This document shows positions 21,892 to 45,083 of a DNA stretch of 64,000 nt, piece after piece. The stretch comes from Saccharothrix deserti (GTDB lineage: Bacteria > Actinomycetota > Actinomycetes > Mycobacteriales > Pseudonocardiaceae): the NCBI RefSeq assembly GCF_009769385.1, contig NZ_VKAB01000040.1, positions 1-64,000 on the forward strand, read 5' to 3'. Position numbers and translations under genes: made by a program. The notes beneath the pieces were generated by a model. That model was not told the DNA's origin. It saw nothing but the letters and a program-made list of their open reading frames with translations, and ran no database searches. Each line of letters starts with the position of its first letter. Within the stretch, counting starts at the first letter, position 1.

Positions 21892-22005
21892 TCAACGTCC
21901 TTGGCTGGGGTAGGGCAGTAGTGCCATCTCTCGTGCGTTCTTGATCGCGGTGGCGACCTGGCGTTGTTGTTGCGGCGTCAGGCCGGTGACGCGAGGCTGC
22001 GCGAG
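21892..22005 (-). pseudogene. C-terminal remnant of ribosomal protein bS18 (alternative paralogue)
   Basis: About 35 codons ending at 21892 read [19 protein letters not shown] then AREMALLPY, the typical S18 C-terminus. The N-terminal half is missing; the frame joins foreign sequence near 22,000. Its position directly upstream of the CobW fragment on the same strand matches the usual order of the zinc-starvation (C-minus) ribosomal protein operon, so it is probably what remains of rpsR2. The main S18 gene must be elsewhere. Confidence 0.75.
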
Positions 22006-22350: not shown

Positions 22351-22472
22351 GGCTTCGCCTCGTGCGGGTGTCCATAGGTGACGCCTACCGGGTGCCCGGG
22401 TGTTCCAGTCCCTCAAGCCGCTGGTCACTGGCGCGTCTTCACTACGCCGAGCTTATTGCCTATTCTTTGCAG

Positions 22473-23009
22473 GTGCATAATTATTGCATCAAGGTGGCGA
22501 CGCGTGATGACCTCGACGGTGCGCGCGTGGTGATGCTCGACGCCGTCTACCGGGACTTCGGTACCGGCTACGTGCCTCGCTGGCACCGCGACATCATGGA
22601 TCCCGAGGCGTTCTACCTGCGGTCTGAGCGGCACACCCTGCTCGTGGCGGTCGACGAGCAGGACGGGACGGTGGTCGCCACCGGGGCGTTGGACTCGCGG
22701 GGGCCCGCGCATCCGCCGAATCCGCGGTGGTTGGCCGAGCGCTACCCGTCGGGGGAGACCGCCCAGCTGCGGCGTGTGTACGTGCGCCCCGAGCATCGGC
22801 GGCGGGGTCTGGCCCGGCGGATGGTGGGCGAGCTGCTGGACTTCGCGAAGGCGGACGGCGGTTACCGCGTGGTGTACCTGCACGCCTACCCGCATGCGCC
22901 CGGCGCGTTGGCCCTGTGGCAGTCGCTGGGCGAGGTGGTGTGCGACGAGCGGCACGAGGTGCCCGGTGGCGGGAGTGGAGTCGTCCACTTCGAAGTGCCC
23001 CTTCCTTAA
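22473..23009 (+). CDS. GNAT family N-acetyltransferase
   Basis: About 178 residues. The GNAT acetyl-CoA motif A is AQLRRVYVRPEHRRRGLARRM, preceded by strand beta4 (VVATGALDSRG). The start is uncertain: GTG 22473 begins just before the coding-like part, and in-frame GTG 22362 adds poor sequence. A small AT-rich island (TTATTGCCTATTCTTTGCAG, then GCATAATTATTGCATC, ~22,453-22,491) surrounds the start, unlike the rest of the region. The stop codon touches the first GACAAT-type operator at 23,009. The acceptor is unknown; it may not belong to the metallophore locus. Confidence 0.75.
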   Translation: MHNYCIKVATRDDLDGARVVMLDAVYRDFGTGYVPRWHRDIMDPEAFYLRSERHTLLVAVDEQDGTVVATGALDSRGPAHPPNPRWLAERYPSGETAQLRRVYVRPEHRRRGLARRMVGELLDFAKADGGYRVVYLHAYPHAPGALALWQSLGEVVCDERHEVPGGGSGVVHFEVPLP

Positions 23010-23025
23010 TGACAATGAATGTCAT
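23009..23025. promoter_or_regulatory. Zur-like box upstream of the permease-remnant/MFS unit
   Basis: ATGACAATGAATGTCAT is a 6-5-6 inverted repeat of the GACAAT class, 16 bases before the ATG at 23,041. It resembles Zur boxes of actinobacteria (TGAnAATnATTnTCA type) and not DtxR/IdeR boxes. Three relatives precede the other units of this locus. Confidence 0.65.
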
Positions 23026-23040
23026 CTACACTGACCGCTC

Positions 23041-23451
23041 ATGACACCGCGGAGAACCAGGGCCATGCGTTTTCACCGTCGTCACCGGCTGGCCGCCGTC
23101 CTCCCGCCGGTCACCCGCCATGCCCTGCTCCGCATCCCCGGCGTCGCGCTCGCCTTGGCCGCCCTGGGTTTGCTCGGTCTGGGCGGCCAACCGCCGTCAC
23201 CCGAGTGGGGTCTGCTGCTCGCCGAGAACCTGCCCTACGCCGAGCGCGCCCCGTGGGTGGTGCCGGTCCCCGCCGCCGCGCTCGCCCTGCTGGGTGCGCT
23301 GGCGGTCATCGCAGCCGGCGGAGCTCGTCTTCCCCGCCCACCACAGTGGACATGGGTACGCGGGTCCTCGGCGACACCGCGGCAACCGGAACGTGGAGCG
23401 ACCCCGATGCGGCACACCGCAGCCGTCACAGCCCGTGAGGATTTCGCATGA
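23041..23451 (+). CDS. C-terminal part of a DppC/NikC-type ABC permease (short, probably remnant)
   Basis: 136 residues. The middle reads as the last two transmembrane segments of a peptide/nickel ABC permease: VALALAALGLLGLGGQPPSPEWG, then LLLAENLPY, then VPVPAAALALLGALAV. The N-terminal transmembrane segments and the EAA loop are absent, so it cannot act alone. It still has the Zur-like box in front and is coupled to the MFS gene (ATGA). It could be a scar of a second importer kept as leader cistron, or a small membrane protein. Confidence 0.6.
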   Translation: MTPRRTRAMRFHRRHRLAAVLPPVTRHALLRIPGVALALAALGLLGLGGQPPSPEWGLLLAENLPYAERAPWVVPVPAAALALLGALAVIAAGGARLPRPPQWTWVRGSSATPRQPERGATPMRHTAAVTAREDFA

Positions 23452-24752
23452 CAGAGTTGATCTCCGGAGCGGTGAAGCGTTCCCGGGAACGAGGGCCACG
23501 GCGCGAGCGGACCTGGAAGACCCTGTCCCCGCTGCTGCGTCTGTTGATCCTGACGCAACTCGCCTTCAACGTCGGCTTCTACGCCGTCCTGCCGTTCCTC
23601 TCCGAACACCTCGGCTCCATCGGCATGGTCGGCTGGCTGGTCGGGCTGGTGTTGGGGCTGCGGACCTTCAGCCAGCAGGGCCTGTTCGTGCTGGGTGGTG
23701 CGCTCGTCGACCGCTACGGGGTCCGGCCGGTGGTGCTCGCCGGCTGCACGCTGCGGATCGCCGGGTTCGCCTGGCTGGGGTACGCCGAGCGGCCCGCGGC
23801 GGTCATCGGCGCGGTGCTGCTGATCGGCTTCGCCGCCGCGCTGTTCTCCCCCGCGGTCGAATCCGAGGTCGCCCGGCAGGCGGTGAGCTGGGAGCAGGCG
23901 GGCAACGGGCCGCGGACCAGGGTGTTGGCCCTGTTCACCGTGGCGGGCCAGGCCGGGGCGTTCGTCGGCCCGCTGCTGGGCGCGCTGCTGCTCGCCGTGG
24001 ACTTCCGCACCGTCTGCCTCGCCGGCGCCGTGGTCTTCGTCCTCGTCCTCGCCGGGCACGCGTGGCTGATGTCGCAACACATCCCCGGCCGAACCCGGGT
24101 CTCCGGGCGGGGCGGCGTGCGGGCGATGCTGCGCAACCGCCGCTTCCTGGCACTGTGCGGCGCGTACGGCGCCTACCTGCTGGCCTACAACCAGTTCTAC
24201 CTCGCGCTGCCGGACGAAGTAGCGCGCGCCGCGGGCTCACAGGCGCCCCTGGCGTGGCTGTTCGCCCTGTCCTCCCTGCTCGTCGTGTCCGTCCAGTTGC
24301 CGGTCACCCGCTGGGCCGGGAACCGGCTGGACCTGCGCAGGTCCATGGCCATCGGGCTGTTGCTCATCTCCGCGGGCTTCGTCGTCGTCGCCGCCCGGCC
24401 GGCCGCGTGGACGGGAGTCGCCGGACTGGCACCGGCGGCGGGCTTCGTCGTCCTGCTCACCGTCGGCCAGATGCTGGTGGTCCCGACAGCCCGTGCGTGG
24501 GTTCCCGACCTCGCCGCGGAGGGCAGGCTCGGCCTCTACGTCGGCGCCCTGTCCTCGGTCTCCGGCTTGATCGTCCTCGTCGGCAGCGCGGCAACCGGCT
24601 CCCTGCTCGACCTGGGCCTCCCGCACGCCGTGCCCTGGCTCGTCCTCGCCACGATCCCGGCGCTGGCCATCTTGCTGCTGCCCCGCGGCGTCGACAGTCC
24701 TCAATCGACGGAGGAACCGGGTGACATCACGACGAGCGGAACGCCGGTGTGA
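23448..24752 (+). CDS. MFS transporter, probable metallophore exporter
   Basis: A 434-residue major facilitator protein with 12 predicted membrane segments. The motif between TM2 and TM3 is GGALVDRYGVRPVVLAG. ATG 23448 overlaps the preceding stop, so expression depends on the promoter with the box at 23,009. Many siderophore clusters use an MFS exporter of this kind (EntS-like). Its place at the head of the locus, under the shared operator, suggests it exports the product of the megasynthases; substrate by inference. Confidence 0.82.
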   Translation: MTELISGAVKRSRERGPRRERTWKTLSPLLRLLILTQLAFNVGFYAVLPFLSEHLGSIGMVGWLVGLVLGLRTFSQQGLFVLGGALVDRYGVRPVVLAGCTLRIAGFAWLGYAERPAAVIGAVLLIGFAAALFSPAVESEVARQAVSWEQAGNGPRTRVLALFTVAGQAGAFVGPLLGALLLAVDFRTVCLAGAVVFVLVLAGHAWLMSQHIPGRTRVSGRGGVRAMLRNRRFLALCGAYGAYLLAYNQFYLALPDEVARAAGSQAPLAWLFALSSLLVVSVQLPVTRWAGNRLDLRRSMAIGLLLISAGFVVVAARPAAWTGVAGLAPAAGFVVLLTVGQMLVVPTARAWVPDLAAEGRLGLYVGALSSVSGLIVLVGSAATGSLLDLGLPHAVPWLVLATIPALAILLLPRGVDSPQSTEEPGDITTSGTPV

Positions 24753-24886
24753 CCGGTGACCTGCGCCAACCCGGCAAACCACGAGTTCTGGCAGAGCGTG
24801 CGTACGGGTGCCGGGACTGCGAACGAGCTCGACTGACAGACCTCCGTCACCAATGTCATGACTCGCGACAACCAGACGCACGCAAC

Positions 24887-24916
24887 TTGTAACGATAATC
24901 ATTGTCGAACTAGCAT
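24887..24916 (+). promoter_or_regulatory. Promoter with embedded Zur-like box upstream of the methyltransferase gene
   Basis: TTGTAA (24,887) and TAGCAT (24,911) are 18 bases apart and fit -35/-10. Between them lies CGATAATCATTGTCG (24,893-24,907), an almost perfect inverted repeat; its reverse reads CGACAATGATTATCG, matching the other boxes. A repressor bound here would block RNA polymerase. Confidence 0.65.
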
Positions 24917-24941
24917 GCTCCCGACCGACTCGGGAGGCGTG

Positions 24942-26081
24942 ATGGAGGAACTCGTTCGCCGGGCTGCGACGGCCGGTGAAGCGGCGGTGGCGGCGGCCGA
25001 TCTCGCCGCGCTCGGTGATCTGGCCGATCTGCTCGACCGGGCCGCGCTGCTCGCGATCGCGTACACCGTGAGACGTCAGGGACTGTTCGACGCGCCCGAC
25101 GCCGCGCACGATCTCCGCGAGATCGTCACTGCCATGAAGGTCGCTCCTCGGCACGTCCGGATCGTGCGCCGTTGGCTCGCGGCGCTCGAGCGCGAAGACA
25201 TGCTCGCGCGGGACGCGGCGCGGTATCGAGGACTGCGCCGGGTGGGGGCCGCGGAGGTCGAAGGGGCGCGCGCCCGCCTGGACTCTGTGGCCCGTGGGTT
25301 CGAGCACGGTCCGGGGCTGGCGCGCTTCTTCCAGCTGTCGGTGTCGTATCTGCCGGAACTGCTGCGCGACGAGATCTCGTTGCAGGCGCTGCTGTTCGCC
25401 GACGGTGACCTGGACGTGGCCGACGACGTGTACCGGCGCAACCTGGCAAGCAGGTACACCAACAACGCCGCCGCGGCGGTGATGAGGGTGTTCGCCGAGC
25501 GGCACGCGGGACCTGGGTCGGTGCGGGTGTTGGAGATCGGGGCGGGTGTAGGCGGTACGACGGTCGAGGTGCTGCCGGAGCTGGACGGGCTGGAAGTCGA
25601 CTACCTGTTCACCGATGTGACGCGGTTCTTCCTGATGGCGGCGAAGGAGCGGTTCGCGTCTCGGTCGTGGGTGCGCTACGGCTTGTTCGACCTCAACCGC
25701 GACGCCTCGGAGCAGGGGTGCCCGCCGGGATCGGTGGACCTGGTGCTCGCGGCCAACGTGTTGCACAACGCGCGGCACGCGGGGCGGACGCTGCGGGCGA
25801 TCCGCGACCTGCTCGCGCCGGGTGGGCGCCTGGTGTTCATCGAGACCTGTCGTGATCACTACCAGCTCATGACCTCGATGCAGTTCCTGATGTCGCCGCC
25901 CGCCACCGAGCCGGACGCGGACTTCGCGGACTTCCGCCGGGGCACCGATCGGATCTTCCCGACGCGGGAGGAGTGGCTCGGCGAGCTCGCCGCGGCAGGT
26001 TTCCGGGATCCGCTTTGCGTGCCGGGTGTGGACCACCCGCTGAGCCGGATCGGGCAGCACGTGTTCTCCGCGATGCGCTGA
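24942..26081 (+). CDS. Stand-alone methyltransferase related to NRPS/PKS-embedded MT domains
   Basis: A 379-residue protein. The C-terminal half is a class I methyltransferase of the kind found inside NRPS/PKS modules: RRNLASRYTNN, then VLEIGAGVGGTTVEVLPEL (SAM loop, residues ~196-205), then YLFTDVTRFFL and NVLHNARHAG. The N-terminal ~170 residues are helical and O-methyltransferase/dimerisation-like. GGGAGG precedes ATG 24942. Neither megasynthase carries an MT domain, whereas the yersiniabactin enzymes do, so this protein may methylate the chain in trans; this is inference. Confidence 0.8.
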   Translation: MEELVRRAATAGEAAVAAADLAALGDLADLLDRAALLAIAYTVRRQGLFDAPDAAHDLREIVTAMKVAPRHVRIVRRWLAALEREDMLARDAARYRGLRRVGAAEVEGARARLDSVARGFEHGPGLARFFQLSVSYLPELLRDEISLQALLFADGDLDVADDVYRRNLASRYTNNAAAAVMRVFAERHAGPGSVRVLEIGAGVGGTTVEVLPELDGLEVDYLFTDVTRFFLMAAKERFASRSWVRYGLFDLNRDASEQGCPPGSVDLVLAANVLHNARHAGRTLRAIRDLLAPGGRLVFIETCRDHYQLMTSMQFLMSPPATEPDADFADFRRGTDRIFPTREEWLGELAAAGFRDPLCVPGVDHPLSRIGQHVFSAMR

Positions 26082-26109
26082 TTGACAATGATTGTCGTTT
26101 CCGTAAGCT
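26082..26109 (+). promoter_or_regulatory. Promoter with Zur-like box for the KS-AT...TE operon
   Basis: A consensus -35 TTGACA (26,082) and TAAGCT (26,104) are 16 bases apart. The box TGACAATGATTGTCG (26,083-26,097), a near-perfect 7-1-7 palindrome, covers the -35. It is the best of the four related operators and drives an apparent six-gene coupled operon to 40,588. Confidence 0.72.
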
Positions 26110-26110
26110 G

Positions 26111-26146
26111 ACGACGGTCGTCACTCGTCCGAGTGACGACCGTCGT
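26111..26146 (+). other. Perfect 17-bp leader hairpin before the NRPS/PKS start codon
   Basis: ACGACGGTCGTCACTCG is followed after two bases by its exact reverse complement. The stem ends 17 bases before GTG 26164 and 7 bases after the likely -10, so it lies at or near the transcript 5' end. The ribosome site (GGGAG) is free just 3' of it. It could protect the mRNA 5' end, act as an attenuation device, or be a second protein operator. Confidence 0.7.
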
Positions 26147-26163
26147 CGCCTGGGAGTGAGCCC

Positions 26164-29100
26164 GTGAACGAGTCCGTCGCCGTCGTCGGGTTTTCCTGTC
26201 GTTTCCCCGGTGCCGGTGATGCGGACGCGTTCTGGCAGCTGCTCGTCGACGGCCGTGAGGCGCTGACCCGGTTCACCGACGAGGAGCTGGCGCAGCGCGG
26301 CGTGCCCACCGGGCTGCGCCGCAACCCGGCCTATGTGCCGGTGGGTGGTCTGCTGGCCGACCAGGACCGGTTCGACCCGGCGCCGTTCGGCATGTCGCGC
26401 ACCGAGGCGGAGCTGCTCGACCCGCAGCAGCGCGTGTTCCTGGAGTGCGCGTGGCACGCGCTCGAGCACGCCGGACTTGCCCGCGGTGCGGGCGTGACCG
26501 GGGTGTTCGCGGGCGCCGCGCTCTCCGCCTATCTCGCGACGAACCTCGCGCACCGCTTCGACCCGCTCGGAGGCGCGGACCCCGCGGGCAGCCTGCAGTT
26601 GCACACCGGCAACGTGGCCGACTACCTGCCGTTGCGGACCGCGCACCGGCTCGGCCTGGAAGGACCCGCGGTCGCGGTGGGCGCCACGTGCGCCACGTCG
26701 CTGGTCGCCGTGCACATCGCGGTGCAGGCGCTGCTCGCGGGCGAGTGCGACACCGCGCTGGCGGGCGGGGTGTCGCTGCGGGTGCCGCAGGGACTGGGCT
26801 ACCTGCACGTGCCGGACGGTCCGTTCTCCGCGGACGGCCACACCCGCCCCTACTCGGCGCAAGCCAGGGGCACGGTCTTCACCCAGGGGGCCGGTGTCGT
26901 CGTGCTGCGGCGGCTGTCCGACGCGCTGGCCGACGGCGACCACGTGCACGCCGTCGTCCTCGGCTCCGCCGTGGGCAACGACGGCGCGGACCGCGCCGGC
27001 TTCACCGCCCCCTCGTCCGCGGGGCAGGCGCGCACGATCGCAGAGGCGCTCGCCGTCGGCGACGTCGACCCTCGTTCCGTGTCCTACGTGGAAGGGCACG
27101 GGACGGGAACCATCCTGGGCGATCCCATCGAGGTGCAAGCGTTGCGGCGGGTCTTCGGCGACGCCGACCGCCCGTGGTGCGGCCTCGGATCGGTCAAGGG
27201 CAACATCGGTCACGCGGACTCGGCGGCGGGCATCGCGGGATTCCTCAAGGTGGTTCAGGCGCTGCGGAACCGCACGCTCCCAGCGTCACTGCACGCGCAT
27301 CCGGTGAACCCCGAAGTCGGGCTGGAGGGCTCCGCCTTCCGGATCGTCGACCGCACCGAGCGCTGGGAGACCGAGCGAGTGCGCCGCGCGGGTGTCAGCT
27401 CGTTCGGCATCGGCGGCGTCAACTGCCACGTCGTGCTGGAGGAGGCGCCGGTCACGCCGGAGCCGGACCGTGACGAGCGGGCGCAGGTGCTGGTGGTCTC
27501 CTCGGCGACGGCGCAGGCCTGCCGCGCCACGGCTCGCGCACTCTCCGACGCCGTCACCTCGGCGCCCGTCGCCGATGTCGCGCACACCCTGACCCGCAGG
27601 CGGCAGCTCGCCGCGAGGGCCGCGGTGACGGTCGCGCCCGGTGAGGACGTCGCCGAGGCACTGCGCCGGGCCGTCGTTGTCGAGGCGGCAGGCACGCCGC
27701 CGCGCGTGGTGTTCGCCTTTCCCGGCGGCGGTGCCCAGTACGCCGGGATGGCCGAGGGCCCGTACCGCGACGAACAGGTCTTCACGTCCACAGTGGACGA
27801 ACTGGCGGAGTTCCTGCTGCCGTTGTCCGGCGCGGACGTGCGCGACGTGCTGCTCGACCCGGTGGCCACCGCGGCCGCCCGCAGTCCGCGCCGCGGCCTG
27901 CCCGCACTGTTCACCGCCTGTCTCGCCACCGCCCGCCTGCTGGAGTCCTGGGGTGTGCGCCCGGACGTGGTGCTCGGGCACAGCGTCGGCGAGTACGCCG
28001 CCGCCGTTGTCGCGGGCGTGCTCTCGTGGCAGGACGCTGCACTGCTGGTGGCCGAACGGTCGCGGCTGATGGAGGAGTTGCCGCAGGGCGCGATGCTCTC
28101 GGTGCCGCTCGGCGAAGCGGACGTGCGTGACCTGCTGGCCGCACATCCGGCTCTCGATCTCGCCGCGATCAACGCGTCCGACTCGTGCGCGGTGTCCGGG
28201 CCGAGCGACGCCATCACCGTCCTGCGGGACGTCCTCGCCGCACGGGGCGTCGAATCGCACGTTGTCGGCGTCGATGTCGCCGCCCACTCCCGCCTGGTGG
28301 AGTCCGCCATGCCCGCGCTGCGCGCGGTCGCCGCGCGGCTGACCGCCGCACCGGCCACGATCCCGCTGGTCACCACGCTCACCGGCCAGGTGGCCACGGG
28401 CGCGGCGCTCGCCGATCCCGAGCACTGGGTGCGGCACCTGCGGGGCACGGTGCGCTTCGCCGACGCGCTGGACACCGCGCTGGGCGACGGTGACCCGGTC
28501 CTCGTGCAGGTCGGTCCCGGCGGCATGATCGCCTCGCTCGCCGCGCGCCACGAGTCCGTCCGCGCGGCGGTGACGACCTTCCCGCGCGCGGGCGAGGGCA
28601 CCGCCGGCCGTGCCGCGCTGCTCGACGCGGCCGGGACCCTGTGGGCGCACGGTGTTCCCGTTGACCTGACCGCAACGCACCGAGGCCGCAGGACGCGGGT
28701 TCCGCTGCCCGGCTACGCCTTCCAGCGCGAACGGTTCTGGATCGAGCCCCAGCGCACGCGCACGGGCGCGGTGGTCGGCCCGGTCGCGGCCGAGCCCGAT
28801 GTGGCGGAACCGCTGCAGTTGCCGTCGTGGCGGAGGCTGCCGCCGCTCGCGCCGGTGGCCGCCCTTGCGAACCGGCGGTGGGCCGTGCTGGGCGACGGGC
28901 ACTGGGCGGACGCGCTGCGCGCCGCTCTGCCCGTGGTCGACGGCGACGCGGACGCGGTGATCGCGGTCCACTCGGGCACGTCGCTGCATGACGAGGTGCT
29001 GGCATACGGCCGACTCGACGGCACACCTCTGGTACAGCTCACCGTGCGCGGCGAGCGGGTGATCGGTGACGAGGTGGTGGACCCGGTCGCCGCCGGTGTG

Positions 29101-32100
29101 CGCGGTCTGCCCAGGGTGCTCGCCCAGGAGGTGCCCGGCCTGCGCTGGCGCACCCTCGACCTGCCGGACGACGAGCCAGGCGAGGCGGGTGTCGCCGCCG
29201 TGCTGGCCGAGACCGCCGATCTGCTCGCCACCCCCGACGGTGGGGCGTGGGAACTCGCGTTGCGCGCCGGACAGCGGTGGATCCGCCAGTGGGAACCGTG
29301 GCAGCCCAACGACACCGAGGACCTGCCCTCGGACCCGGTCGTTGTCGTGACCGGTGGCTCGGGCAACGTCGCCCGCGCGCTGGCGGACGCCCTGCACGCC
29401 CGCGGCTCGGCGCGGGTGGTGCTCGCTTCTCGCAGCACCACGCCGTCGGTGGACGTCACGGATGCCGACCAGCTGCGCGCGCTGCTCGCGGACGTGGCCG
29501 ACCAGCACGGCACGATCGACCTCGTCGTCCACGCCCCGGTCGTGATCGAGCTGGCGGCGTTGTCCGAAATGGACGATCAGGTGGTGGCGGACGCCTTGGC
29601 GCCCAAGGTGACCGGCGCGCTCAACCTCCGCTCCGCTGTCGAGGCCCTGCCACCCCGGGGGCGTCCTCGCGCGGTCGTGCTGATGTCCTCGGCGGCCGGG
29701 ACGATCGGCGGCTTCGGTCTCGGCGCCTATGTCGCGGCCAGCCGGTTCCTCGACGGTTTCGCCGCCGGTGGCACACCTGGCACCACCTGGGTCGCGATCG
29801 ACTGGGACCGCTGGCGGTTCGGGACCGCCCAGGAACACGAGGCGGCGGCCGAGATCACCATGCGGCACGCGCTCGACGCGGCCGACGCGGTGCGGGCCCT
29901 GCTGCGGGTGGCCGGTCTCGCACTGGCCGGGACCGTTCCGCACCAGGTGGCCGTGTCCCCGGCCGAGCTCAACACGCGTTCTCTCGCGATCGGAGCGCGG
30001 CAGACGCGTGCCGAGTCCGGCGGCGACGCGCCGGCCACCGCCGAGGAACGTCTCGTCGCCGAGGTGCTGGGCGAGGCGCTGGGCCGTCCGGTGACCAGCC
30101 GCGACGACGACTTCTTCGCACTCGGCGGGCACTCCCTGCTCGCCACCCGCGTGCTCGCCCGGCTGCGCGACGACCACGGCGTCGAGCTGCGGCTGCGCGA
30201 CCTGCTGGCCCGGCCGACCGTCGCGGGGCTCGCCGAGCTGATCACGACGACGACCGGCCCCGCCCGCCGGGAGGAGCCTGCCGCCGCACCGGTCGCCGCG
30301 GGGGAACCGTTCCCGCTCACCAGGGTGCAGCACGCCTACTGGGTCGGCCGGTCCGCCGCGTTCGCGCTCGGCGAGGTCGGGTGCCACTTCTACCTGGAGC
30401 ACGACTGCGCGGAGCTGGACCACGAGCGCTACCAGAACGCGTGGAACCGGCTCATCGAGCGGCACGAGATGCTGCGCTGCGTGGTCGGCCCGGACGGCCA
30501 CAACGTGGTGCTGACCGAGGTTCCCCGCTACCGGGTACCGGTGCACGAGCTGTCCGATGCGGACGAGCTGGAGGCGTTGCGGGCACGGCTGTCCCACCGC
30601 GTCGCCGACCCCGGCCGCTGGCCGTTGATCGAAGCCCACGTCGTGCGGATGCCCGGCGGGCGGCACCGGGTGCTCGTCTCGGTCGACGTGCTCGTCTGCG
30701 ACTCCGCGAGCTACCTGATCCTCGACCGCGAGCTGCGCGCGCTGTACGAGAACCCGCAGGCCGAGCTGCCCCCGATCGGTACGACCTTCGCCGAGTGCGC
30801 GCGGGCGATGGACCGCCGCCGCGGTGACACCGAGCACCGGCGTGCGGCCGAGTACTGGCTGCGCCGCGTCGACGCGCTCCCGGTCGCGCCACCGCTGCCA
30901 CTGCGCGAGAGCGAGGGCGCGCCCCGGTTCGCCCGGCGCAGCGCCAGGCTGGCCGCGCCGCTGTGGAACCGGGTGCGTGAGCAGGCCGGGCAAATGGGCG
31001 TGACGCCGACCGCCGTGCTGCTGACGGCTTACGCCGACGTGCTCGCCGCGTGGTCGCGCACGGACCACTTCTGCCTCACGCTCACCGTGTTCGACCGGCC
31101 CGACGTGCACCCCGACGTGGACAGGGTGGTCGGCGAGTTCTCGTCACTGCTGCTGTTCGAAGCCGATCACCGCGGGCTCGCGACGTTCGCCGAGCGGGCG
31201 AAAGCGGCGCAGCACCGGTTGTTCGACGACCTGGACCACCGGTCGTTCTCCGGTCTCGAAGTGCTCACCGAGCAGGCGCGGCGCACCGGCAGGCAGCAGA
31301 ACGTGCCGGTCGTGTTCACCGGCATGCTGGGGCTGGACCGCCTCGGCGGTGAGCCGCACGACCACGAGTGGCTCGGGCCGGTCGACTTCGGCGTGAGCCA
31401 GACCCCGCAGGTGTGGCTCGACCACCAGGCCTACGAGCACCGCGGCGCGCTGGTGCTGCAGTGGGACGTGGCCGAGACATCGCTGGACGCCGAAGAGGCC
31501 GACACCGCCTTCACCGCCTACGTCACGTGGCTGACCGCGCTGGCCGAGTCGGGCGACGCCTGGACCGGCGGTGAAGCGGGCCCGATGCCGCACGGGGAGT
31601 TCGCGCCCTCGCCGTCCGAGGACGAGCACGTCGTCGGCGCGGCGGACGACGACGCCTCGACCGGCGGCGACGCGGCGTCAGGGGAGTCCCAGGGCGACCA
31701 CGTCATCGACGTGCTCACCGGGATCTGGGCGGAACTGCTCGACCTCGAACCGGGTGCGATCCCGGCGGACGTCTCGTTCCTCGGTCTCGGCGGTGACTCC
31801 CTGCTCGTCGTCCGGATGGCCTCGATCATCCGGCAGAAGCTGGACGTCGTGCTCGCGCTGACCGAGATCCGCGCCGAGCTGACCCTCACCGATCTGGTCG
31901 AGCTGGTGCGCCGACGTGGCGAGGGCGGCGCTGCTCGCAGGGCGCTCGACGTGACCGTGCGCCGCAGGTTCGAGCCTGCCGAGCCGTTCGGGCTGCTCCC
32001 ACTGCAACAGGCCTACTTCGTCGGCCAGCAGGGGGAGTGGGAGCTGTCCTACTCCTCGGCGCACGTGTGCACCGACATCGCACTGTCCGATGTGGACGCC

Positions 32101-37482: not shown

Positions 37483-39587
37483 GGACCTGGTTGCTCGTGA
37501 TGGGGCTGCTGACGGTGTCGGCGGTCGTCCTGTGCGGTGCGTGGTTCGCCCCGCACGACGTCACCGAGGTGGTCGGCGTGCCGTGGTCGGCTGAGGGCCT
37601 GCTGGGCACCGACGTGCTCGGCCGCGACGTGCTCTCCCGTCTGCTCGCCGGAGGCGCGGGACTGCTGGCCGTCGCCGTGCCCGCCGGGCTCGCGGCGAGC
37701 CTGCTCGGCACGGTCGCGGGCCTGGCCGCGACGTGGACCCCGTGGGTCGAACGCCTGGTGCTGCGAACGAGCGCGGGCATGCTCGCCGTACCGGGCCTGC
37801 TCGTGGTGCTCACGTGCGCGGTGGCACTGCCCGCGTGGGCCGCTGTGCTGGCGGGCATGGTGCTGCTCGGCACGCCGCTCTCGGCGCGCGTGGTGCACGC
37901 CGCCGCCACGCCGCTGCGCCGCGCGGGCTTCGTGCTGGCGGCAGTCGTGCGGGGCGAACGCCCACGCGCGGTGCTGATGCGCGAGCTGCTGCCCGTGGTG
38001 GGCGCGACGGTGCTCTCCGACGCCGGACTGCGCGTGGTGGCCGCGGTGCAGCTGACGGTCGCCGTGCACGCGCTCGGTCTCGGTCCGCAGCCACCCGCGC
38101 CGGACTGGGCTGTCATGATCAGGGAGAACCTGCCCGGCGTCGCGCTGAACCCGTGGTCGGTGCTCGCCCCGGCCGCGGCCGTCGCGGCGCTGACAGCCGC
38201 GCTGCTGCTCGGGCTCGACCTGCTCGGCACCCGGATCGTGCCCCGCACCGTGCCGCGCAGGCACGCGCCACCACCACCCGGCCCGTCGCGCCCGGTGACC
38301 GGTGTGGTCGAACTGCGCGGCGTGACGGTGGAGTCCGAGCCGGGGGTGCCGTTGTTCGCAGGCCTCGACCTGACCGTCGCCGAAGGCGAGATCGTCGGTG
38401 TCGTCGGCCCGTCCGGCGCCGGGAAGACCAGTCTGCTCAGGCTGCTGCTGGGCGATGTCCGGCCGGGCGCGCGGGTGGTCACGGGACAGCTGCTGTGGCA
38501 CGGGGAACCCGTGGTGTTCGGCAGCCGGGTGGCGCGGCGGTGGCGGCGCGCCCACGTCGGCCTGCTGCCACAGGACCCGGCCGCGACGCTGGATCCGTTG
38601 CGGCGCGTCGGGGCGGTGGCCCCGGCAGACGTGCTCGCCCGGCTGGGGCTCCCGTCCGACGTCGGGCGACGCCACCCGCACGCCCTGTCGGGCGGACAGG
38701 CCCAGCGGGTGGTGCTCGCCAGAGCGCTGGCGGCCGATCCCGAGCTGCTGCTGCTCGACGAACCGACCAGCGGACTGGACGCGGCGACCCGGCGTCTGGT
38801 GACCGAGGAGATCACCGCGAGGCGCCGCAGCACCGTGATCGTCACCCACGACCTGCGCTGGGCCCGGTCGGTGTGCGATCGCGTGGTCGAGCTGCGGCAC
38901 GGGGCGCTCGTACCGGTGGGGGAGACGCCCACCCGGCCGCGGGCTGCGGTCGTCGAGTTCGGTGCGCCCGTGCTGCGGCTGGAGGACGTGGCCGTCGCGC
39001 GGCGCGGCCGGGAGCTGGTGCGCGGCGTCGACCTGGAACTGCGGCGCGGTGAACTGCTCGTCCTCGTCGGTCCCTCAGGGGCGGGCAAGAGCACACTGCT
39101 GCACGCCGTGGCCGGGCTGCATCCGGTGATCGGGCGGGTCGAGGCACGCGGAACCGTGGCGCTGCTGGGCCAGGACCCGGTGGCCGAGCTGAACCCCGTG
39201 CACTCGCTGGGATCCGCTGTCGCACGGCCGCTGCGCCTGGCGGGCCTGCGGCGCCGGGAAGCACGGGACCGGGCGGTGGAGCTGCTCGCCGAGGTGGGGC
39301 TCGGACCGGAGTTCGCCGATCGCCGGCCGGGCGAGTGCTCGGGTGGACAGCGGCAACGCGCCGCGCTCGCGCGAGCGCTGGCGAGCGACCCGGACGTGCT
39401 GCTCGCCGACGAGCCGACCTCGGCGCTGGACGCGACGACCGCGGACGCGGTGCTGGAAGTGCTGGACCGACGCCGTGCCGCCGGTCTGGCGGTGTTCTTC
39501 GTGACCCACGACGAGGACGTGGCGGCCAGGGCCGACCGGGTCTTCGAGGTGGTGGACGGCCGATGTGCGGAGAGGGTGTCGACGTGA
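37479..39587 (+). CDS. Fused ABC importer: DppC-type permease + two ATPase domains
   Basis: A 702-residue protein joining three usually separate subunits. Residues 1-265 are a DppC/NikC-like permease (LLGTDVLGRDVLSRLLAG is the family hallmark). Residues ~280-490 form ATPase 1: GPSGAGKTS, LSGGQAQRVVLARAL, LLLLDEPTSGLD. Residues ~495-700 form ATPase 2: GPSGAGKST, CSGGQRQRAALARAL, LLADEPTSALD. Both nucleotide sites look intact. ATG 37479 overlaps the preceding stop (ATGA). With the lipoprotein and DppB-like permease it makes a complete importer from three polypeptides. The fusion is uncommon and fixes stoichiometry. Confidence 0.9.
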   Translation: MRTWLLVMGLLTVSAVVLCGAWFAPHDVTEVVGVPWSAEGLLGTDVLGRDVLSRLLAGGAGLLAVAVPAGLAASLLGTVAGLAATWTPWVERLVLRTSAGMLAVPGLLVVLTCAVALPAWAAVLAGMVLLGTPLSARVVHAAATPLRRAGFVLAAVVRGERPRAVLMRELLPVVGATVLSDAGLRVVAAVQLTVAVHALGLGPQPPAPDWAVMIRENLPGVALNPWSVLAPAAAVAALTAALLLGLDLLGTRIVPRTVPRRHAPPPPGPSRPVTGVVELRGVTVESEPGVPLFAGLDLTVAEGEIVGVVGPSGAGKTSLLRLLLGDVRPGARVVTGQLLWHGEPVVFGSRVARRWRRAHVGLLPQDPAATLDPLRRVGAVAPADVLARLGLPSDVGRRHPHALSGGQAQRVVLARALAADPELLLLDEPTSGLDAATRRLVTEEITARRRSTVIVTHDLRWARSVCDRVVELRHGALVPVGETPTRPRAAVVEFGAPVLRLEDVAVARRGRELVRGVDLELRRGELLVLVGPSGAGKSTLLHAVAGLHPVIGRVEARGTVALLGQDPVAELNPVHSLGSAVARPLRLAGLRRREARDRAVELLAEVGLGPEFADRRPGECSGGQRQRAALARALASDPDVLLADEPTSALDATTADAVLEVLDRRRAAGLAVFFVTHDEDVAARADRVFEVVDGRCAERVST

Positions 39588-40588
39588 GGTTCGACGACGT
39601 GTGGATCACCGGGACCGGTGGCGTGCTCGGGGAGCTGCTGCCCGTGCGGCAGGCCGTCACCGACGGCAGGTACGCGGCCGCTGACGCGGCGGAGGCGGGT
39701 ATGACGTCGGTGTCGGTGTCCGTCGAGTCGCCGCCGGAGATGGCTGTTCGCGCCGGGCGGCTCGCGCTCGGCACCGCCTCGCCCGGACTGCACCTGCACG
39801 GCGCGGCCCGCTTCCAGGGCATCGACCTGTGGTCGGCGTCCTGCTGGATCGCGAGCCGGCTGCTGCCCGGACCGCTGGCGGGGCTGTCGATGCAGGTCAA
39901 CGCGCTGTGCAACAGCGGACTCGCGGCACTGGAACTCGCCGCGACCACGCTCACCGCACGCCAGGACCTCCGTGAGGCACTGATCACCGTGGCCGACTGG
40001 TTCCCCGAGCCGGCGGTCGACCGGTGGAACCTCGACTCCGGGGTGCTGCTGGGTGACGGCGGGGCAGCGGCCGTGCTCGGCCGTGGCGGCGGACAGCTGC
40101 GGCTGCTGTCGTGCGTGTCCTGGACCGACCCGTCCCTGGAGGGGCTGCAACGGGGCAACGAGCCGTTCCACGCGGCGTCGCCCGCGGTGCTGAAGCCGCT
40201 CGTGCTGCGCCGGTTGGCCCGCGAGTTCTACGCGGTGAGCGGGCGATCCCCGGCCTCGGTGGTCGACGCGCACGTCACCGGCGTGCGCACCGTCGTCGCA
40301 CAGGCGCTCGCCGAGGCCGGGACGACGCTCGACGAGGCGCGCTGGGCCGTGCCGCCGTTCGTCGGCCGCACCTCGTTCCGCTTCGGCTACGCCCAGCCGC
40401 TCGGGCTCGACCCGGCGCGAACGCTGGTCGACCTGGGGCTGAGTACCGGCCACATGGGCGGCGTTGACCACCTGTACGCGCTGGACCACCTGCTGCGCGG
40501 CGACCTGCTCGCACCGGGGGACAAGGTCGTGCTGATCGGCGTCGGCGGCGGGTTCACCTTCTCCTGCGCGGTCCTGCAGGCCGCGTGA
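39584..40588 (+). CDS. KAS III-like (FabH family) ketoacyl synthase/acyltransferase
   Basis: A 334-residue thiolase-fold protein. The active-site cysteine is in VNALCNSGLAALE. A histidine occurs in DAHVTGV, and the C-terminal site reads LSTGHMGGVDHLYAL, where FabH has the asparagine motif. The changed Asn region recalls the acyl-transferring branch (CerJ/DpsC-like) more than true KAS III. GTG 39584 overlaps the transporter stop. It is last in the operon. No salicylate synthase or aryl-AMP ligase is seen in the locus, so this enzyme may supply or transfer the starter acyl group; this is inference. Confidence 0.8.
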   Translation: MRFDDVWITGTGGVLGELLPVRQAVTDGRYAAADAAEAGMTSVSVSVESPPEMAVRAGRLALGTASPGLHLHGAARFQGIDLWSASCWIASRLLPGPLAGLSMQVNALCNSGLAALELAATTLTARQDLREALITVADWFPEPAVDRWNLDSGVLLGDGGAAAVLGRGGGQLRLLSCVSWTDPSLEGLQRGNEPFHAASPAVLKPLVLRRLAREFYAVSGRSPASVVDAHVTGVRTVVAQALAEAGTTLDEARWAVPPFVGRTSFRFGYAQPLGLDPARTLVDLGLSTGHMGGVDHLYALDHLLRGDLLAPGDKVVLIGVGGGFTFSCAVLQAA

Positions 40589-40626
40589 GCCGCCCATTCA
40601 CTCCCTGCCAGTGACCGACTTGGCTG

Positions 40627-40676
40627 TGGTCGTGAGTGGTTTCCGTCGCTCTGGCAAGGGAAACCACTCACGACCA
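40627..40676. terminator. Bidirectional terminator between convergent operons
   Basis: An 18-bp perfect stem (arms 40,627-40,644 and 40,659-40,676, core GGTCGTGAGTGGTTTCC) with a 14-base loop lies between the KAS III stop and the oxidoreductase stop. It can end both converging transcripts. Its length and perfection are unusual. Confidence 0.85.
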
Positions 40677-40682
40677 AGGGGA

Positions 40683-41612
40683 TCAGCCGGGGATCGGCAC
40701 GTTCACGGACGAGCGGAACAGGTCCTGCTCCAGCCAGATCGCGGCTTTCGCGCCGTCCGCCGCCGCAGTGATCACGAACGGTGTCGGACCCACCAGCTCG
40801 GCCAGACGCGCGGTGTCGCCCGCGGCGTAGACGCCTGCCACCGTGGTCTGCTGCATGGCGTTGACCCGAACGCAGCCGTCCGGCAGCAGCTCGCAGCCCA
40901 GTGAGGCGGCCAGGTCTGACCGCTGCCGCGACACCGGCCGGTGGAAGACCGCGCCGCGCTCCAGCGGCGTGCCGTCGGCGAAGTGGACGATCAGCGCGTT
41001 TTGCACGCCGCCGACGCGGGTGACGGGTTCCTCGCGCACCTCGATCTTGCGGTCGGACAGCGCGGCACGCAGTTCCTCGGATACCTCCAGCGGGCCGTTC
41101 GCGCACAGCACGACGTCATCGCTGAACCGGTCTGCCACGTACAGCGCCAGCATCGCGTGCGAGAAGTCACCGCCCAGCACCGCGAGCGGTTTGCCCGCCG
41201 TCTCGAAGCCGTGGCAGAACGGGCAGTGGTACACGCCGCGCCCGAACCGCTCGGCCACCCCGTCGACCTCGGGCAGCACGTCGGCCTGGCCGCTCGCCAG
41301 CAGCAGCCGCCGGGCGCGTTCGGTCGATCCGCCCGCCAGTTCGACGGCGAAGTCGTCCGCGGTTCCGGTCACGGCCACGACGAGGTCCTCGCGGATCTCG
41401 ACGGTCGGGTAGTTCGCCAGCTCCTGGCGGCCCAGCCGCCGGAGCTCGGCGGGCGGGAAGCCGTCGCGGGAGAGGAACATGTGCATCTCCTCCGCCGGCT
41501 CGTTGCGGTAGGTGCCGCTGTCGACCACCAGCACGCGCCTGCGTTGCCTGCCCAGGGTCAGCGCGGCGTTGAGGCCGGCGGGCCCACCACCGACGACGAT
41601 CACATCGAACAC
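40683..41612 (-). CDS. FAD-dependent oxidoreductase, thioredoxin-reductase-like with CPFC
   Basis: A 309-residue two-dinucleotide-domain flavoprotein. FAD motif VVGGGPAGLNAALTLGR; redox-active CPFCHGFE at about residue 140; a second Rossmann site is present as AVLGGDFSHAMLAL; C-terminal AAGDTA. CPFCHGFE resembles the GliT/HlmI dithiol oxidases (CxxCHG) more than classical TrxR (CATC). I prefer GTG 41612 with AGAGGA upstream to TTG 41630. It lies downstream of the two ABC exporter-fold genes in the same direction. A role in oxidising thiols or thiazolidine/thiazoline rings of the product is plausible. Confidence 0.85.
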   Translation of the reverse strand: MFDVIVVGGGPAGLNAALTLGRQRRRVLVVDSGTYRNEPAEEMHMFLSRDGFPPAELRRLGRQELANYPTVEIREDLVVAVTGTADDFAVELAGGSTERARRLLLASGQADVLPEVDGVAERFGRGVYHCPFCHGFETAGKPLAVLGGDFSHAMLALYVADRFSDDVVLCANGPLEVSEELRAALSDRKIEVREEPVTRVGGVQNALIVHFADGTPLERGAVFHRPVSRQRSDLAASLGCELLPDGCVRVNAMQQTTVAGVYAAGDTARLAELVGPTPFVITAAADGAKAAIWLEQDLFRSSVNVPIPG

Positions 41613-41626
41613 GTTCGTCCTCTCGT

Positions 41627-43360
41627 TCAATTCCGCCCCGCAGCGATGCGCCAGCCACGGGCGTTTTCCCTCTGGGTCACGAAATCGGCGTACCGGCCAC
41701 CGCGCTCCAGCAACTCCTCGTGCGTGCCTGCGTCCGCGACACGACCGCCGTCGAGCACGACGATCCGGTCCGCGTTGCGCACGGTGCTGAGCCGGTGCGC
41801 GATCACGAGCAGGGTCCGTCCTCTCGCGAGCGTCGCCAGCGCGGTCGTCACGGCCGCCTCGTTCTCCGCGTCCAGCGCGGCCGTGGCCTCGTCCAGCAGC
41901 ACGATCGGGGCGTCCTTGAGCAGTGCGCGCGCGATCGCCACGCGCTGCCGCTCACCACCGGACAGCCGTGTTCCGCCTTCCCCGACCCGGGTCTGCCATC
42001 CGTCCGGCAGGCGCCGCACGATCTCGGTGACACCGGCCAGCCGCGCGGCCTCGCGCACCTCCTCCTCGCCTGCGTCGGGCCGGCCGAGGCGGATGTTGTC
42101 CTCCAGGGTCGTGTCGAACAGGTAGGTGTCCTGGAACACGGGCGCGATGAGGCCGAGCAGGTCGGCCGTGCGCAACTCGCGGACATCCGCGCCGCCCACC
42201 CGCACCGAGCCGGAGTCGACGTCGAAGAACCGCGCCACCAGGCGGACCACCGTGCTCTTGCCCGCGCCCGAGGCCCCGACCAGCGCCGTGGTGGTGCCGG
42301 GCGCGACGGTGAAGCTCACGTCGTCGAGCACCGGCCGGTCGTCGTAGCCGAAGCGGACCCGGTCGAACTCGATCGAAGGTGAGCCGAGCGGTGCCGACCG
42401 CTCGGGTTCCGGCAATGCCCGTGCGGCGAACACCGCCTCGATGCGGTCCAGCGAGCCCGCGGCCATGCGCAGTGCCGCGCCCAGCTCCGCCGCGCTGAGC
42501 AGCGGTTCGGTGAACCGGACCGCGAGCACCAGCGCCACCACGACCGCGGGCAGGTCCACGTCCGCGCCGGCCGCGAGCGCCGCGCCGAGCACCAGCAGCG
42601 CGGTGAACGCCGTCTGCACCGCCAGGACGAAGCCTGCGAGTCCGGGCAACGCCGTGCGCAGCATGCGCCGCGCCGCGTTGCGCGCGGAGACCAGCGCGTC
42701 GTCGAGGAGGGCGAACCCGTGCGCGGAGCGGCCGAACGCCCGCAGCACCGGCTGGTTGCGGGCGAACTCGACGACCTGGCCGCCCGCTTCGGCGCCGGCG
42801 GCGTCCGCGGCCTGGTCCGTGCGCTGCACCAGCCTTCCGGTCCAGCGGTGGGCCGCGATCACGACGGGTGCGGCGACGAGCGCGCCGACCGCGATCCGCC
42901 AGTCGACGAACAGCAGCACGGCGACGACGGTCGCGGGTGTGACCACCGCGTGCGCGAGCGGATCGAGCAGGTGCCCCGGCACGCCCATGACGCTCATGAC
43001 GTTCTGCGTGGCGACGCGGCCGAGCGACCCGACCCGCGTGGTGGTGAACCAGCCCAGCGGCAGCGTGACGACGTGGTCGCCGAGCCGCTCGTGCAGCACG
43101 CCGCCAAGCGCGTATCCCGCCCGCCTGCCCGCCACGACCCCTCGACTGTGCAGCAGCGCGTACGCACCGACGGCGACGGCGAGCACCGCGAGCCAGGGCC
43201 ACGCCCGCTGCGGTTCGCCCGAGACCAGCGCCCGCAGAACCGGGAGCAGCACGCCGAACGCCACGCCCTGCACGGCGGCGGCCGCACCGAGGCACCACAC
43301 GGCACGGCGCAGCTGCGTGGCCTGCCCCGGACCCATCAATGACAGCAACCGGCGGATCAC
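41627..43360 (-). CDS. ABC exporter-fold protein (YbtQ/IrtB-like)
   Basis: A 577-residue membrane-plus-ATPase protein. Six membrane helices, then an ATPase with GASGAGKST, Q-loop VFQDTYLF, signature LSGGERQRVAIARAL and IVLLDEATAALD. GTG 43360 overlaps the stop of the companion gene. Pairs of this kind in yersiniabactin (YbtP/YbtQ) and mycobactin (IrtA/IrtB) loci have exporter architecture but take up metal-siderophores. Here a second, binding-protein-dependent importer also exists, so direction cannot be told from sequence. Confidence 0.88.
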   Translation of the reverse strand: MIRRLLSLMGPGQATQLRRAVWCLGAAAAVQGVAFGVLLPVLRALVSGEPQRAWPWLAVLAVAVGAYALLHSRGVVAGRRAGYALGGVLHERLGDHVVTLPLGWFTTTRVGSLGRVATQNVMSVMGVPGHLLDPLAHAVVTPATVVAVLLFVDWRIAVGALVAAPVVIAAHRWTGRLVQRTDQAADAAGAEAGGQVVEFARNQPVLRAFGRSAHGFALLDDALVSARNAARRMLRTALPGLAGFVLAVQTAFTALLVLGAALAAGADVDLPAVVVALVLAVRFTEPLLSAAELGAALRMAAGSLDRIEAVFAARALPEPERSAPLGSPSIEFDRVRFGYDDRPVLDDVSFTVAPGTTTALVGASGAGKSTVVRLVARFFDVDSGSVRVGGADVRELRTADLLGLIAPVFQDTYLFDTTLEDNIRLGRPDAGEEEVREAARLAGVTEIVRRLPDGWQTRVGEGGTRLSGGERQRVAIARALLKDAPIVLLDEATAALDAENEAAVTTALATLARGRTLLVIAHRLSTVRNADRIVVLDGGRVADAGTHEELLERGGRYADFVTQRENARGWRIAAGRN

Positions 43361-45042
43361 GCGTGCACCGCCCACAGCGCCGCGTACCTGCCACCGGCCG
43401 CGAGCAACTCCGTGTGCCTGCCTCGTTCCACGACAACTCCTCCGTCCAGCACGACGATCTGGTCCGCATCGACCACTGTGGACAGTCGGTGCGCGATCAC
43501 CAGCACGGTCCGGCCATCGGCCAGTTCGCTGATCGCTTCCTGGATCGCGGCCTCCGATTCGGCGTCGGCGAACGCCGTCGCCTCGTCGAGCACCAGCACC
43601 GGGGTGTCGGCGAGCAGTGCCCGCGCGATCGACACGCGCTGTGCCTCGCCACCGGAGAGCCGCACGTCGTCGCCGAGAACCGTGAGATAGCCGTCCGGAA
43701 GCTCGGTGATCCGGTCGTGGATCCGCGCGGCGCGTGCCACCCGGACGACCTCGTCGAAGTCGGCGTCCGGCCGGGCGAGACGGATGTTGTCCAGCACGGT
43801 CGTGCGCAGCAGGCGCACATCCTGCAGCACGAAGCCGATCCAGCGGTAGAGCTGCGCGCTGGGCAGGTCGCGGATGTCCACGCCGTTGATCCGCACCGCT
43901 CCTTCCGGCACGTCGTGGAACCTCGCCACGAGCGCGGCCAGCGTCGACTTGCCCGATCCCGACGGCCCGACGAGTGCGGTGACGGTGCCCGGTTCGAGCA
44001 CCAGGTCGATGCCGTGCAGTACCTCGGCGCCGTCGTCGTAGCGGAACCGGACCGAGTCCAGCTCCACGCGGGCCGGGCCGAGCGGCACCTCCCGCGGGTG
44101 CGCCGGCTCGGGCAGCGGCGGCGTCGCGAGCAGGTCCTCGATCCGGCCCGTCGCGGCCCGGCCCGCCCGCAGGTCCTGGACGCTGTAGCTGATTGCCAGG
44201 GTGGGCGTGCTCAAGCCGATGCCCAGCACGACGAACGGGATCAGGTCGACGGGCGTGAGCAGACCGGCGCCGATGAGCGCGGTGCCCGCGGTCAGCACGA
44301 CGAGCAGCGCCACCAGCGGCGCCTGGGCGAGCTGGCTGCGGGTGAGCGACGGCGTCACCTGCTCCGCCCACCCGGTCACGAACGTGCCGTAGGAGCGTGC
44401 GGCGTCGCGGAACCGCCGGTGCGCCTTGCCCGTCTGGCCGAACGCCTTCACCACCGCGATCCCGTGCACGAACTCCACCACGGCGTTGTCCAGCCGCTGG
44501 GTCGCCTGGTGGTACTCCGCCATGCGCGCGGTCACGTCGCGCATGGCGCGGGCGTGCAGCAGCAGCCCCGCGCCCAGCGGCAACAGGGTGATCACCGTCA
44601 TCAGCGGGTCGATCGCGAGCAGGTAGAGCATTGAAGTCACCGGCACGACGACAGCGGTGACGAGGTCGAGCAGCGAGTGCGCCACCAGGTGGTGCAGCGC
44701 CGCGACGTCGTCGTGGACCGCTCGCTTCACCGCGCCTGAACCCCGTGCGGAGAACCAGCCGAGCGGCAGTCGGCCGAGATGGGCGGCGAGCTTGCGGCGC
44801 AGGTGCAGCTGCAGGTCGTTGTCCGCGAGGTGGGTGAGCGTCGTGGCGGCAGTGAGCAGGACCACCCGAACGGGGAGCGCGGCGACGCCGAGCATCACGT
44901 GGTGCCACCACGGGCCACCGCTGAGCAGTGCTCGACCGACTTCGGCCACGGCGACGAAGGGGACGACGCCTGCCAGCGCGGCCAGCGCCTGACAGGCGAT
45001 TCCAGTGATCAACCGGCCGTGCACCGGCCGTATCAGGATCAT
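43357..45042 (-). CDS. ABC exporter-fold protein (YbtP/IrtA-like)
   Basis: A 561-residue homologue and partner of the next protein. The membrane domain has LPLGWFSARGSGAVKR and VVKAFGQTG; the ATPase has [33 protein letters not shown] and VLVLDEATAFAD. The last motif, with AFADAES where the usual form is ALD, is typical of the siderophore-uptake branch. I prefer ATG 45042, which keeps the divergent operator in the untranslated region; an in-frame upstream start at 45,063 would overlap the box. It is transcribed away from the NRPS gene. Confidence 0.88.
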   Translation of the reverse strand: MILIRPVHGRLITGIACQALAALAGVVPFVAVAEVGRALLSGGPWWHHVMLGVAALPVRVVLLTAATTLTHLADNDLQLHLRRKLAAHLGRLPLGWFSARGSGAVKRAVHDDVAALHHLVAHSLLDLVTAVVVPVTSMLYLLAIDPLMTVITLLPLGAGLLLHARAMRDVTARMAEYHQATQRLDNAVVEFVHGIAVVKAFGQTGKAHRRFRDAARSYGTFVTGWAEQVTPSLTRSQLAQAPLVALLVVLTAGTALIGAGLLTPVDLIPFVVLGIGLSTPTLAISYSVQDLRAGRAATGRIEDLLATPPLPEPAHPREVPLGPARVELDSVRFRYDDGAEVLHGIDLVLEPGTVTALVGPSGSGKSTLAALVARFHDVPEGAVRINGVDIRDLPSAQLYRWIGFVLQDVRLLRTTVLDNIRLARPDADFDEVVRVARAARIHDRITELPDGYLTVLGDDVRLSGGEAQRVSIARALLADTPVLVLDEATAFADAESEAAIQEAISELADGRTVLVIAHRLSTVVDADQIVVLDGGVVVERGRHTELLAAGGRYAALWAVHA

Positions 45043-45056
45043 GTCGCCCAGCCTAG

Positions 45057-45083
45057 TTGACAATCGTTATCAATGTCGACAAG
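45057..45083. promoter_or_regulatory. Divergent Zur-like box between the ABC pair and the NRPS gene
   Basis: TGACAATCGTTATCA (45,058-45,072) is an imperfect 7-1-7 inverted repeat, followed by ATGTCGACA, which may be a further half-site. It lies 16 bases from ATG 45042 on one side and 64 bases from ATG 45136 on the other, so one operator can control both units. TTGACA at 45,057 and TTGATA on the other strand could be -35 elements. Confidence 0.65.

Follow-up and report, generated by a model that had tools for sequence, protein, structure and literature searches.

The known Zur-controlled metallophores of actinobacteria are coelibactin, a predicted zincophore from a nonribosomal peptide synthetase (NRPS) cluster of Streptomyces coelicolor (SCO7676-92) (PMC5472717, PMC12161575, PMC6103462), and the chemically different [S,S]-ethylenediaminedisuccinate (EDDS) of Amycolatopsis japonicum, likewise found through Zur regulation (PMC12161575, PMC6103462). 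The coelibactin-like sorangibactin pathway employs two NRPSs together with a salicylate synthase and an A protein for salicyl loading (PMC10127202). Yersiniabactin serves E. coli Nissle as a zincophore, as reported in a paper with no occurrence of "Zur" in its main text (PMC8636617). Here we describe an NRPS-polyketide synthase (PKS) cluster of Saccharothrix deserti (GCF_009769385.1), located in a stretch of 64,000 nucleotides (contig NZ_VKAB01000040.1, positions 1-64,000) referred to as the window. A Zur regulon and zincophore had been predicted for this locus (the original prediction). The promoters of the cluster bear predicted Zur sites and the product is therefore probably zinc-capturing.

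The cluster shares with that of coelibactin the combination of an NRPS metallophore pathway with predicted Zur control, the S. coelicolor cluster being compared by description only. It differs from the sorangibactin pathway in a KS-AT-KR PKS module, a ketoacyl synthase III (KASIII) acyltransferase and the lack of linked salicylate genes among those recognised. The domain order of the NRPS and PKS is common to HMWP2 and HMWP1 of yersiniabactin, and an ATP-binding cassette (ABC) pair resembling YbtPQ and IrtAB is also common to both; in the window cluster no in-line methyltransferases and no linked salicylate synthase or ligase were found, whereas an extra degenerate Cy-PCP, an Opp system, a dithiol oxidase and Zur-type boxes are added. 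A further likeness is that to staphylopine/Cnt systems, which pair a major facilitator superfamily (MFS) exporter with an Opp/Nik-type importer for a zinc metallophore, although the CntA profile match is only 38 bits and no opine synthesis genes were recognised in the cluster. The oxidase-like protein has the family and CxxC motif of the dithiol oxidases HlmI, DepH and GliT, which serve holomycin, romidepsin and gliotoxin and for which no metallophore link was found in the literature drawn on. A literature search, with most subscription papers outside its reach, found no published Zur-controlled yersiniabactin-type cluster in actinobacteria.

Zur-type boxes in the promoters of the cluster

Four 15-bp palindromes of 7-1-7 layout are present where the original prediction had placed them (Table 1) and are far beyond chance by shuffling of the window. 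The motif TGANAATNNTTNTCA with at most one mismatch gave six strand-matches at three of the four box places, compared with 0.05 expected from the mean of 100 dinucleotide shuffles of the window, none of which reached six; box 2 has two mismatches to this motif. The consensus originally proposed for all four gave seven strand-matches at the four boxes with at most one mismatch, compared with 0.04 expected from shuffles; box 1 carries one mismatch to it. Each box matches 9-10 of the 11 informative positions of the published 15-bp S. coelicolor Zur motif tGaNNatSatNNtCa (PMC5472717). Chance palindromes were ruled out by the shuffles together with the conservation of the boxes across loci.

The box centres are 23-74 bp 5' of the chosen gene starts. 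Box 2 lies inside the 18-bp spacer from TTGTAA to TAGCAT, and box 3 covers a consensus TTGACA -35 element, as predicted, with a 16-bp spacer to TAAGCT. The simple -35/-10 rule that worked for these two boxes gave no promoter match for boxes 1 and 4. The positions relative to the promoters are compatible with predicted repressor sites. Since box 4 lies between divergent genes, the four boxes would serve five transcription units. The expectation of one box for every unit was thus borne out for placement in promoters but not for the count, box 4 serving two divergent units and the linked GNAT gene having no box upstream (best site score only 7).

Distribution of the motif in the genome

The scan covered the whole S. 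deserti genome (10.8 Mb, 162 contigs; contigs are designated C) with the reversed motif as control. At most one mismatch yielded 19 strand-matches at 12 places, whereas the control had 1 and 0. Boxes 1, 3 and 4 account for three of these places. A site without mismatches (C2:432284) is in the divergent promoter preceding the ZnuA gene (Pfam 1e-70), a textbook Zur target, and a second site before znuA has two mismatches. Two more places are C2:436881, preceding genes for ATP-grasp, DUF364, SbnA-like, racemase and MFS proteins, and C3:388944, flanked by a CobW gene and a zur-like gene. With two mismatches allowed, strand-matches numbered 94 forward and 88 reverse, compared with 36 and 37 for the control; among the matches listed is a site (C3:391079) in the divergent promoter of rpmB2/rpmG2/rpsN2/rpsR2/cobW and cobW2/L31/L32, the small genes having been identified from their translations by eye. 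Both znuA and the genes for alternative ribosomal proteins are established zinc targets (PMC12161575, PMC6103462).

The remaining places are a methyltransferase gene promoter (C7:398232), a site preceding an Opp-like operon whose surroundings include a GH6 gene (C16:131530), which may be unrelated, three places with no convincing promoter link (C3:446904, C15:122808 and C28:9229), and a box without mismatches (C18:29542) preceding FecCD permease and ATPase genes and a CydDC-like ABC pair (L014:2763-9043). As a separate observation, the last of these could mark an extra zinc or metallophore uptake system.

Regulators and the iron regulon

The genome encodes five Fur-family proteins. A canonical zur is located on C4, 3' of an ArsR/SmtB-like gene, and its product matches the solved actinobacterial Zur proteins 3mwm, 7vo0 and 2o03 (FurB) with E values of 1e-59 to 2e-59. 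The zur-like paralogue beside CobW (G000:C3:388212; L015:8171-8521) is nearest FurB (E 6e-18), the C10 protein is nearest 3eyy (E 1.5e-38), which we take to be Nur, and the C11 gene precedes a putative katG, so taken from its first residues only. It is quite improbable that the boxes serve another of these proteins, such as the C3 paralogue or a Nur-like or FurA-like regulator, with a metal other than zinc. The number of Fur-family genes, the box upstream of the C3 paralogue and the resemblance of the Opp genes to nickel transporters would fit such a regulator; against it are the occurrence of the motif at the established zinc targets, znuA and the genes for alternative ribosomal proteins, and the C3 paralogue itself, which is closest to FurB/Zur.

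A DtxR/IdeR box consensus of the TTAGGTTAGGCTAACCTAA type gave 8 forward and 3 reverse strand-matches in the genome at up to three mismatches and none with the control. The sites on C20 are around N-hydroxylase-like, binding-protein and NRPS genes resembling a siderophore cluster, with functions assigned from translations, and one site precedes FecCD-like permeases. Even with five mismatches allowed, the window yielded no DtxR-type box. Consequently, DtxR iron control of the cluster was rejected, the DtxR-type boxes being at other, iron-type genes. Iron siderophores are the usual interpretation of yersiniabactin-type clusters; nevertheless, a DtxR-regulated siderophore locus bearing chance A+T-rich palindromes is scarcely credible given the absence of a DtxR-type box from the window, the conservation of the Zur-type boxes and the failure of all 100 shuffles to reach the observed count. 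The original assignment of the boxes to the Zur rather than the IdeR/DtxR form found support, with DtxR-type boxes marking other genes and a canonical zur encoded.

Conservation of the cluster and its boxes

A methyltransferase-PKS-FabH-NRPS set with 32-43% identity was found in a genome of another family of the same order (G396). Its box TGATAACAATTTTCA is centred 34 bp 5' of the first gene and matches 15 of the 15 informative positions of the published 21-bp actinobacterial Zur motif. A box, defined by a summed two-strand mismatch (score) of at most 4 within 300 bp 5' of the NRPS, precedes the homologous NRPS in 24 of 25 actinobacterial loci, compared with 3 of 277 other upstream regions of the same loci. 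The 25 loci are the window, the sister species G393 and 23 of at least 78 named loci with a homologous NRPS; the controls exclude regions overlapping NRPS promoters and positions 22300-26200 of the window, and a single site shared by two divergent genes accounts for two of the three control matches. When each 600-bp region was shuffled by mononucleotides, the observed score was reached in at most 2 of 200 shuffles. Two such sites occur in tandem in Nonomuraea and relatives.

Outside the 25 loci, L083 has a site of score 4, and no box with a score of at most 4 was found in seven actinobacterial loci with a different, longer and fused NRPS (L122, L132-L134, L142, L147 and L148). The other 47 named loci are non-actinobacterial by title; sites with at most one mismatch were viewed where the G+C content was at least 0.58, and L104 and L109 contain some. 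A KASIII search matched 35 of 397 genomes of the order, that of S. deserti included. Among neighbourhoods viewed from 10 of the other 34, the cluster is present in G393 (L058, L059) and G396 (L065), and twelve stretches are without it (L060-L064 and L066-L072, from G295, G204, G138, G338, G326, G251, G377, G150 and a second G393 locus).

The sister species and the duplicated fragment

The orthologous cluster proteins of G393 are 95-98% identical to those of S. deserti, except that the 207-aa protein is 80% identical and the MFS gene is interrupted. Boxes 2 and 3 are identical and one base of box 4 is changed. Within 15 kb upstream of the cluster on the same contig are znuA with boxes and transporter partners, a zur paralogue and CobW, together with S18/S14/L33/L28-type and CobW2/L31-type genes, few other genes being interspersed (assignments by similarity to the S. 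deserti loci L013 and L015 or by inspection). The G393 counterpart of the C3 Fur paralogue (58%) is in the same place, preceded at 52 bp by a weak box (score 4). In S. deserti the znuA, zur-like/CobW and cluster counterparts are spread over three contigs.

Remnants of alternative S18 and CobW genes had been noted upstream of the cluster as classic Zur targets. The fragments are present and the loci are linked in the sister species, but the piece is a recent 328-bp duplication and not a decayed operon: it is 98.8% identical to the C3 locus of the same genome (L015 10003-10330) compared with 81.7% to the sister species, indicating a duplication scar with no functional operon. A decayed Zur operon was accordingly dropped as independent evidence. 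The piece marks the edge of a rearrangement left of the cluster.

Biosynthetic and transport genes

Table 1. Coordinates of the predicted Zur-type boxes, the cluster genes and the duplicated fragment in the window (pLDDT, predicted local distance difference test; ORF, open reading frame).
Feature	Position	Strand	Sequence	Basis or remark
Duplicated fragment, alternative S18 (rpsR2)/CobW junction, 328 bp	21666-21993	-		Partial Pfam cobW and S18 matches
GNAT acetyltransferase	22362-23009	+		47% paralogue of the GNAT ending the C2 gene run
Box 1, Zur-type	23010-23024		TGACAATGAATGTCA	Precedes small membrane ORF and MFS
Small ORF	23065-23451	+		Weak BPD_transp_1 match, below Pfam cut-off
MFS transporter	23448-24752	+		38% paralogue of the C2 operon MFS
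Box 2, Zur-type	24893-24907		CGATAATCATTGTCG, reverse CGACAATGATTATCG	Precedes methyltransferase; unchanged in sister species
Stand-alone methyltransferase	24942-26081	+		Pfam; would act in trans
Box 3, Zur-type	26083-26097		TGACAATGATTGTCG	Covers TTGACA of PKS operon promoter; unchanged in sister species
HMWP1-like synthase, KS-AT-KR-ACP-Cy-PCP-degenerate Cy-PCP-TE	26164-34449	+		Domain search, alignment
207-aa all-helical protein	34449-35072	+		AlphaFold mean pLDDT 88
SBP_bac_5 (Opp/Nik-type) solute-binding protein	35069-36571	+		
OppB/NikB-like permease	36556-37482	+		
Permease fused to two ABC ATPase domains, OppC-D-F-like	37479-39587	+		
KASIII-type acyltransferase (FabH-like)	39563-40588	+		Nearest solved relatives: daunorubicin PKS KASIII, CerJ, ChlB3
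FAD dithiol oxidase-like protein, HlmI/DepH/GliT family, CPFC motif	40683-41612	-		Structure matches, alignment
ABC half transporter AbcB, IrtB/YbtQ-like	41627-43375	-		P-glycoprotein-type chains score higher
ABC half transporter AbcA	43357-45042	-		Best solved match IrtA
Box 4, Zur-type	45058-45072		TGACAATCGTTATCA	Divergent promoter region: ABC/oxidase unit and NRPS
HMWP2-like NRPS, ArCP-Cy-A-PCP-Cy-PCP	45136-50412	+		Domain search

The Cy domains align to the Irp2, EpoB and BmdB structures, and from these domains the product is predicted to contain cysteine-derived thiazolines. In the second Cy-like domain of the PKS, all 4 PKSs compared have Ser in place of the first Asp of DxxxxDxxS. No in-line methyltransferase domains were detected in the NRPS or PKS by Pfam. 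The 207-aa protein has 26 database homologues besides itself, the named organisms being Saccharothrix, Lentzea and Amycolatopsis, and its AlphaFold model gave no significant match to PDB folds (best E 0.16, acyl-CoA-dehydrogenase-type helices).

The daunorubicin PKS relative of the KASIII protein is presumably DpsC. The KASIII Cys is kept in 4 of 5 aligned orthologues and is Ser in L099. No salicylate synthase or salicyl-AMP ligase gene was recognised in the cluster, and no salicylate synthase of the genome scored above the cut-off (best 193 of 325 bits). The best aryl-AMP ligase-like gene of the genome, stand-alone on C36 and below the cut-off (587 of 724 bits), could still supply a starter, so that loading by KASIII is no more than putative. 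The oxidase-like protein is nearest 4ntd, which we take to be HlmI, with DepH and GliT among the next matches; CxxC is kept in all 8 homologues viewed, as CPFC in six and as CAYC in the two Brevibacterium loci.

AbcA is nearest the mycobactin importer IrtA (E 4e-131). AbcB matches IrtB (E 7e-106) and YbtQ (E 1.5e-99), both below P-glycoprotein-type exporters. The Opp/Nik-type importer is encoded within the PKS operon. The C2 genes following the Zur-type box located 4.6 kb from the znuA box (L013:12936-19001, L167:1-6957) run in one direction in the order ATP-grasp, DUF364 (presumably heavy-metal chelation), SbnA-like, racemase, MFS, a further gene, Opp-type importer and GNAT. The run looks like a diaminopropionate-based metallophore pathway and, with its SbnA-like and ATP-grasp genes, may be nearer to the EDDS kind. 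The GNAT, MFS, SBP and OppB proteins of the cluster are paralogues (34-47%) of those of the C2 run, so that both predicted metallophore loci have transport and GNAT genes of a common type.

To the right of the NRPS, an ORF (50826-51929) combines a methyltransferase domain with a transposase-type HTH_32 match, which suggests mobile-element remnants at this border. A 1347-aa protein with a C-terminal CHAT domain is encoded at 52506-56546.

Proposed function

Several findings weigh against a zincophore under Zur control. The genome scan, set beforehand as the refuting test, reached znuA, the alternative ribosomal/CobW promoter (with two mismatches) and the zur-like gene, but 6 of the 12 one-mismatch places, the FecCD operon and five others, are not recognised Zur targets, and the box at the zur-like gene stands 424 bp away from the start called for that gene, an interval that includes 10 masked bases. 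Siderophores or B12 are frequent cargoes of FecCD transporters, and yersiniabactin-type chelators also bind iron. With five Fur-family genes present, the regulator could be a paralogue. Among the conserved boxes, 12 of 25 score exactly 4 and the two from Brevibacterium are poor by eye; the loci include close relatives, for example seven from Nocardia, and are therefore not 25 independent tests. Box 1 is gone in the sister species, where only a poor site, CGACAATCGTTACCG (score 7), is left at the matching place of the alternative ribosomal promoter. Taken together with the evidence above, the cluster is nonetheless very probably under Zur control, and a zincophore is its likely main function. 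The predicted Zur regulon thus found support, and we infer the zincophore part of the original prediction.

From the computed boxes, their conservation, the motif shared with known Zur targets and the gene content, we infer Zur binding, zinc as the metal, the chemical structure and the transport directions of the following scheme. When zinc is sufficient, zinc-bound Zur would occupy the four palindromes and silence the five transcription units. When zinc is scarce Zur would leave, and a yersiniabactin-like chelator would be built on the Cy-domain NRPS/PKS line. Export of the chelator would probably be by the MFS protein, and the zinc complex would be re-imported via the Opp/Nik-type and/or the IrtAB/YbtPQ-like ABC systems.

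Zur could also control a product with another role, either a broad-range or iron metallophore timed by zinc or a weapon that starves neighbours of zinc. Yersiniabactin binds both iron and zinc (PMC8636617), and the dithiol oxidase-like gene belongs to a family described as closing disulfides of zinc-chelating dithiol metabolites and protecting their makers (PMC11317636, PMC10500201). Such a role is unlikely in view of the two importer-type transporters of the cluster and the location of the sister-species cluster among zinc-uptake genes.

For the predicted Zur-controlled zincophore, it is conceivable, if rather doubtful, that the cluster represents a widespread unnamed family of thiazoline zincophores in Saccharothrix, Lentzea, Amycolatopsis, Streptomyces, Nonomuraea, Nocardia and others, and that in the window branch the KASIII acyltransferase replaces salicylate priming to give a thiol-bearing chelator, a redox-gated zincophore with a zinc affinity switched by the dithiol oxidase. 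Were the product a substrate of this enzyme, metal binding would be switchable by redox state. Clusters of this group are easily mistaken for iron siderophores, and the metal of a predicted metallophore is not readable from the enzymes alone, whereas the regulatory sites give a testable answer.

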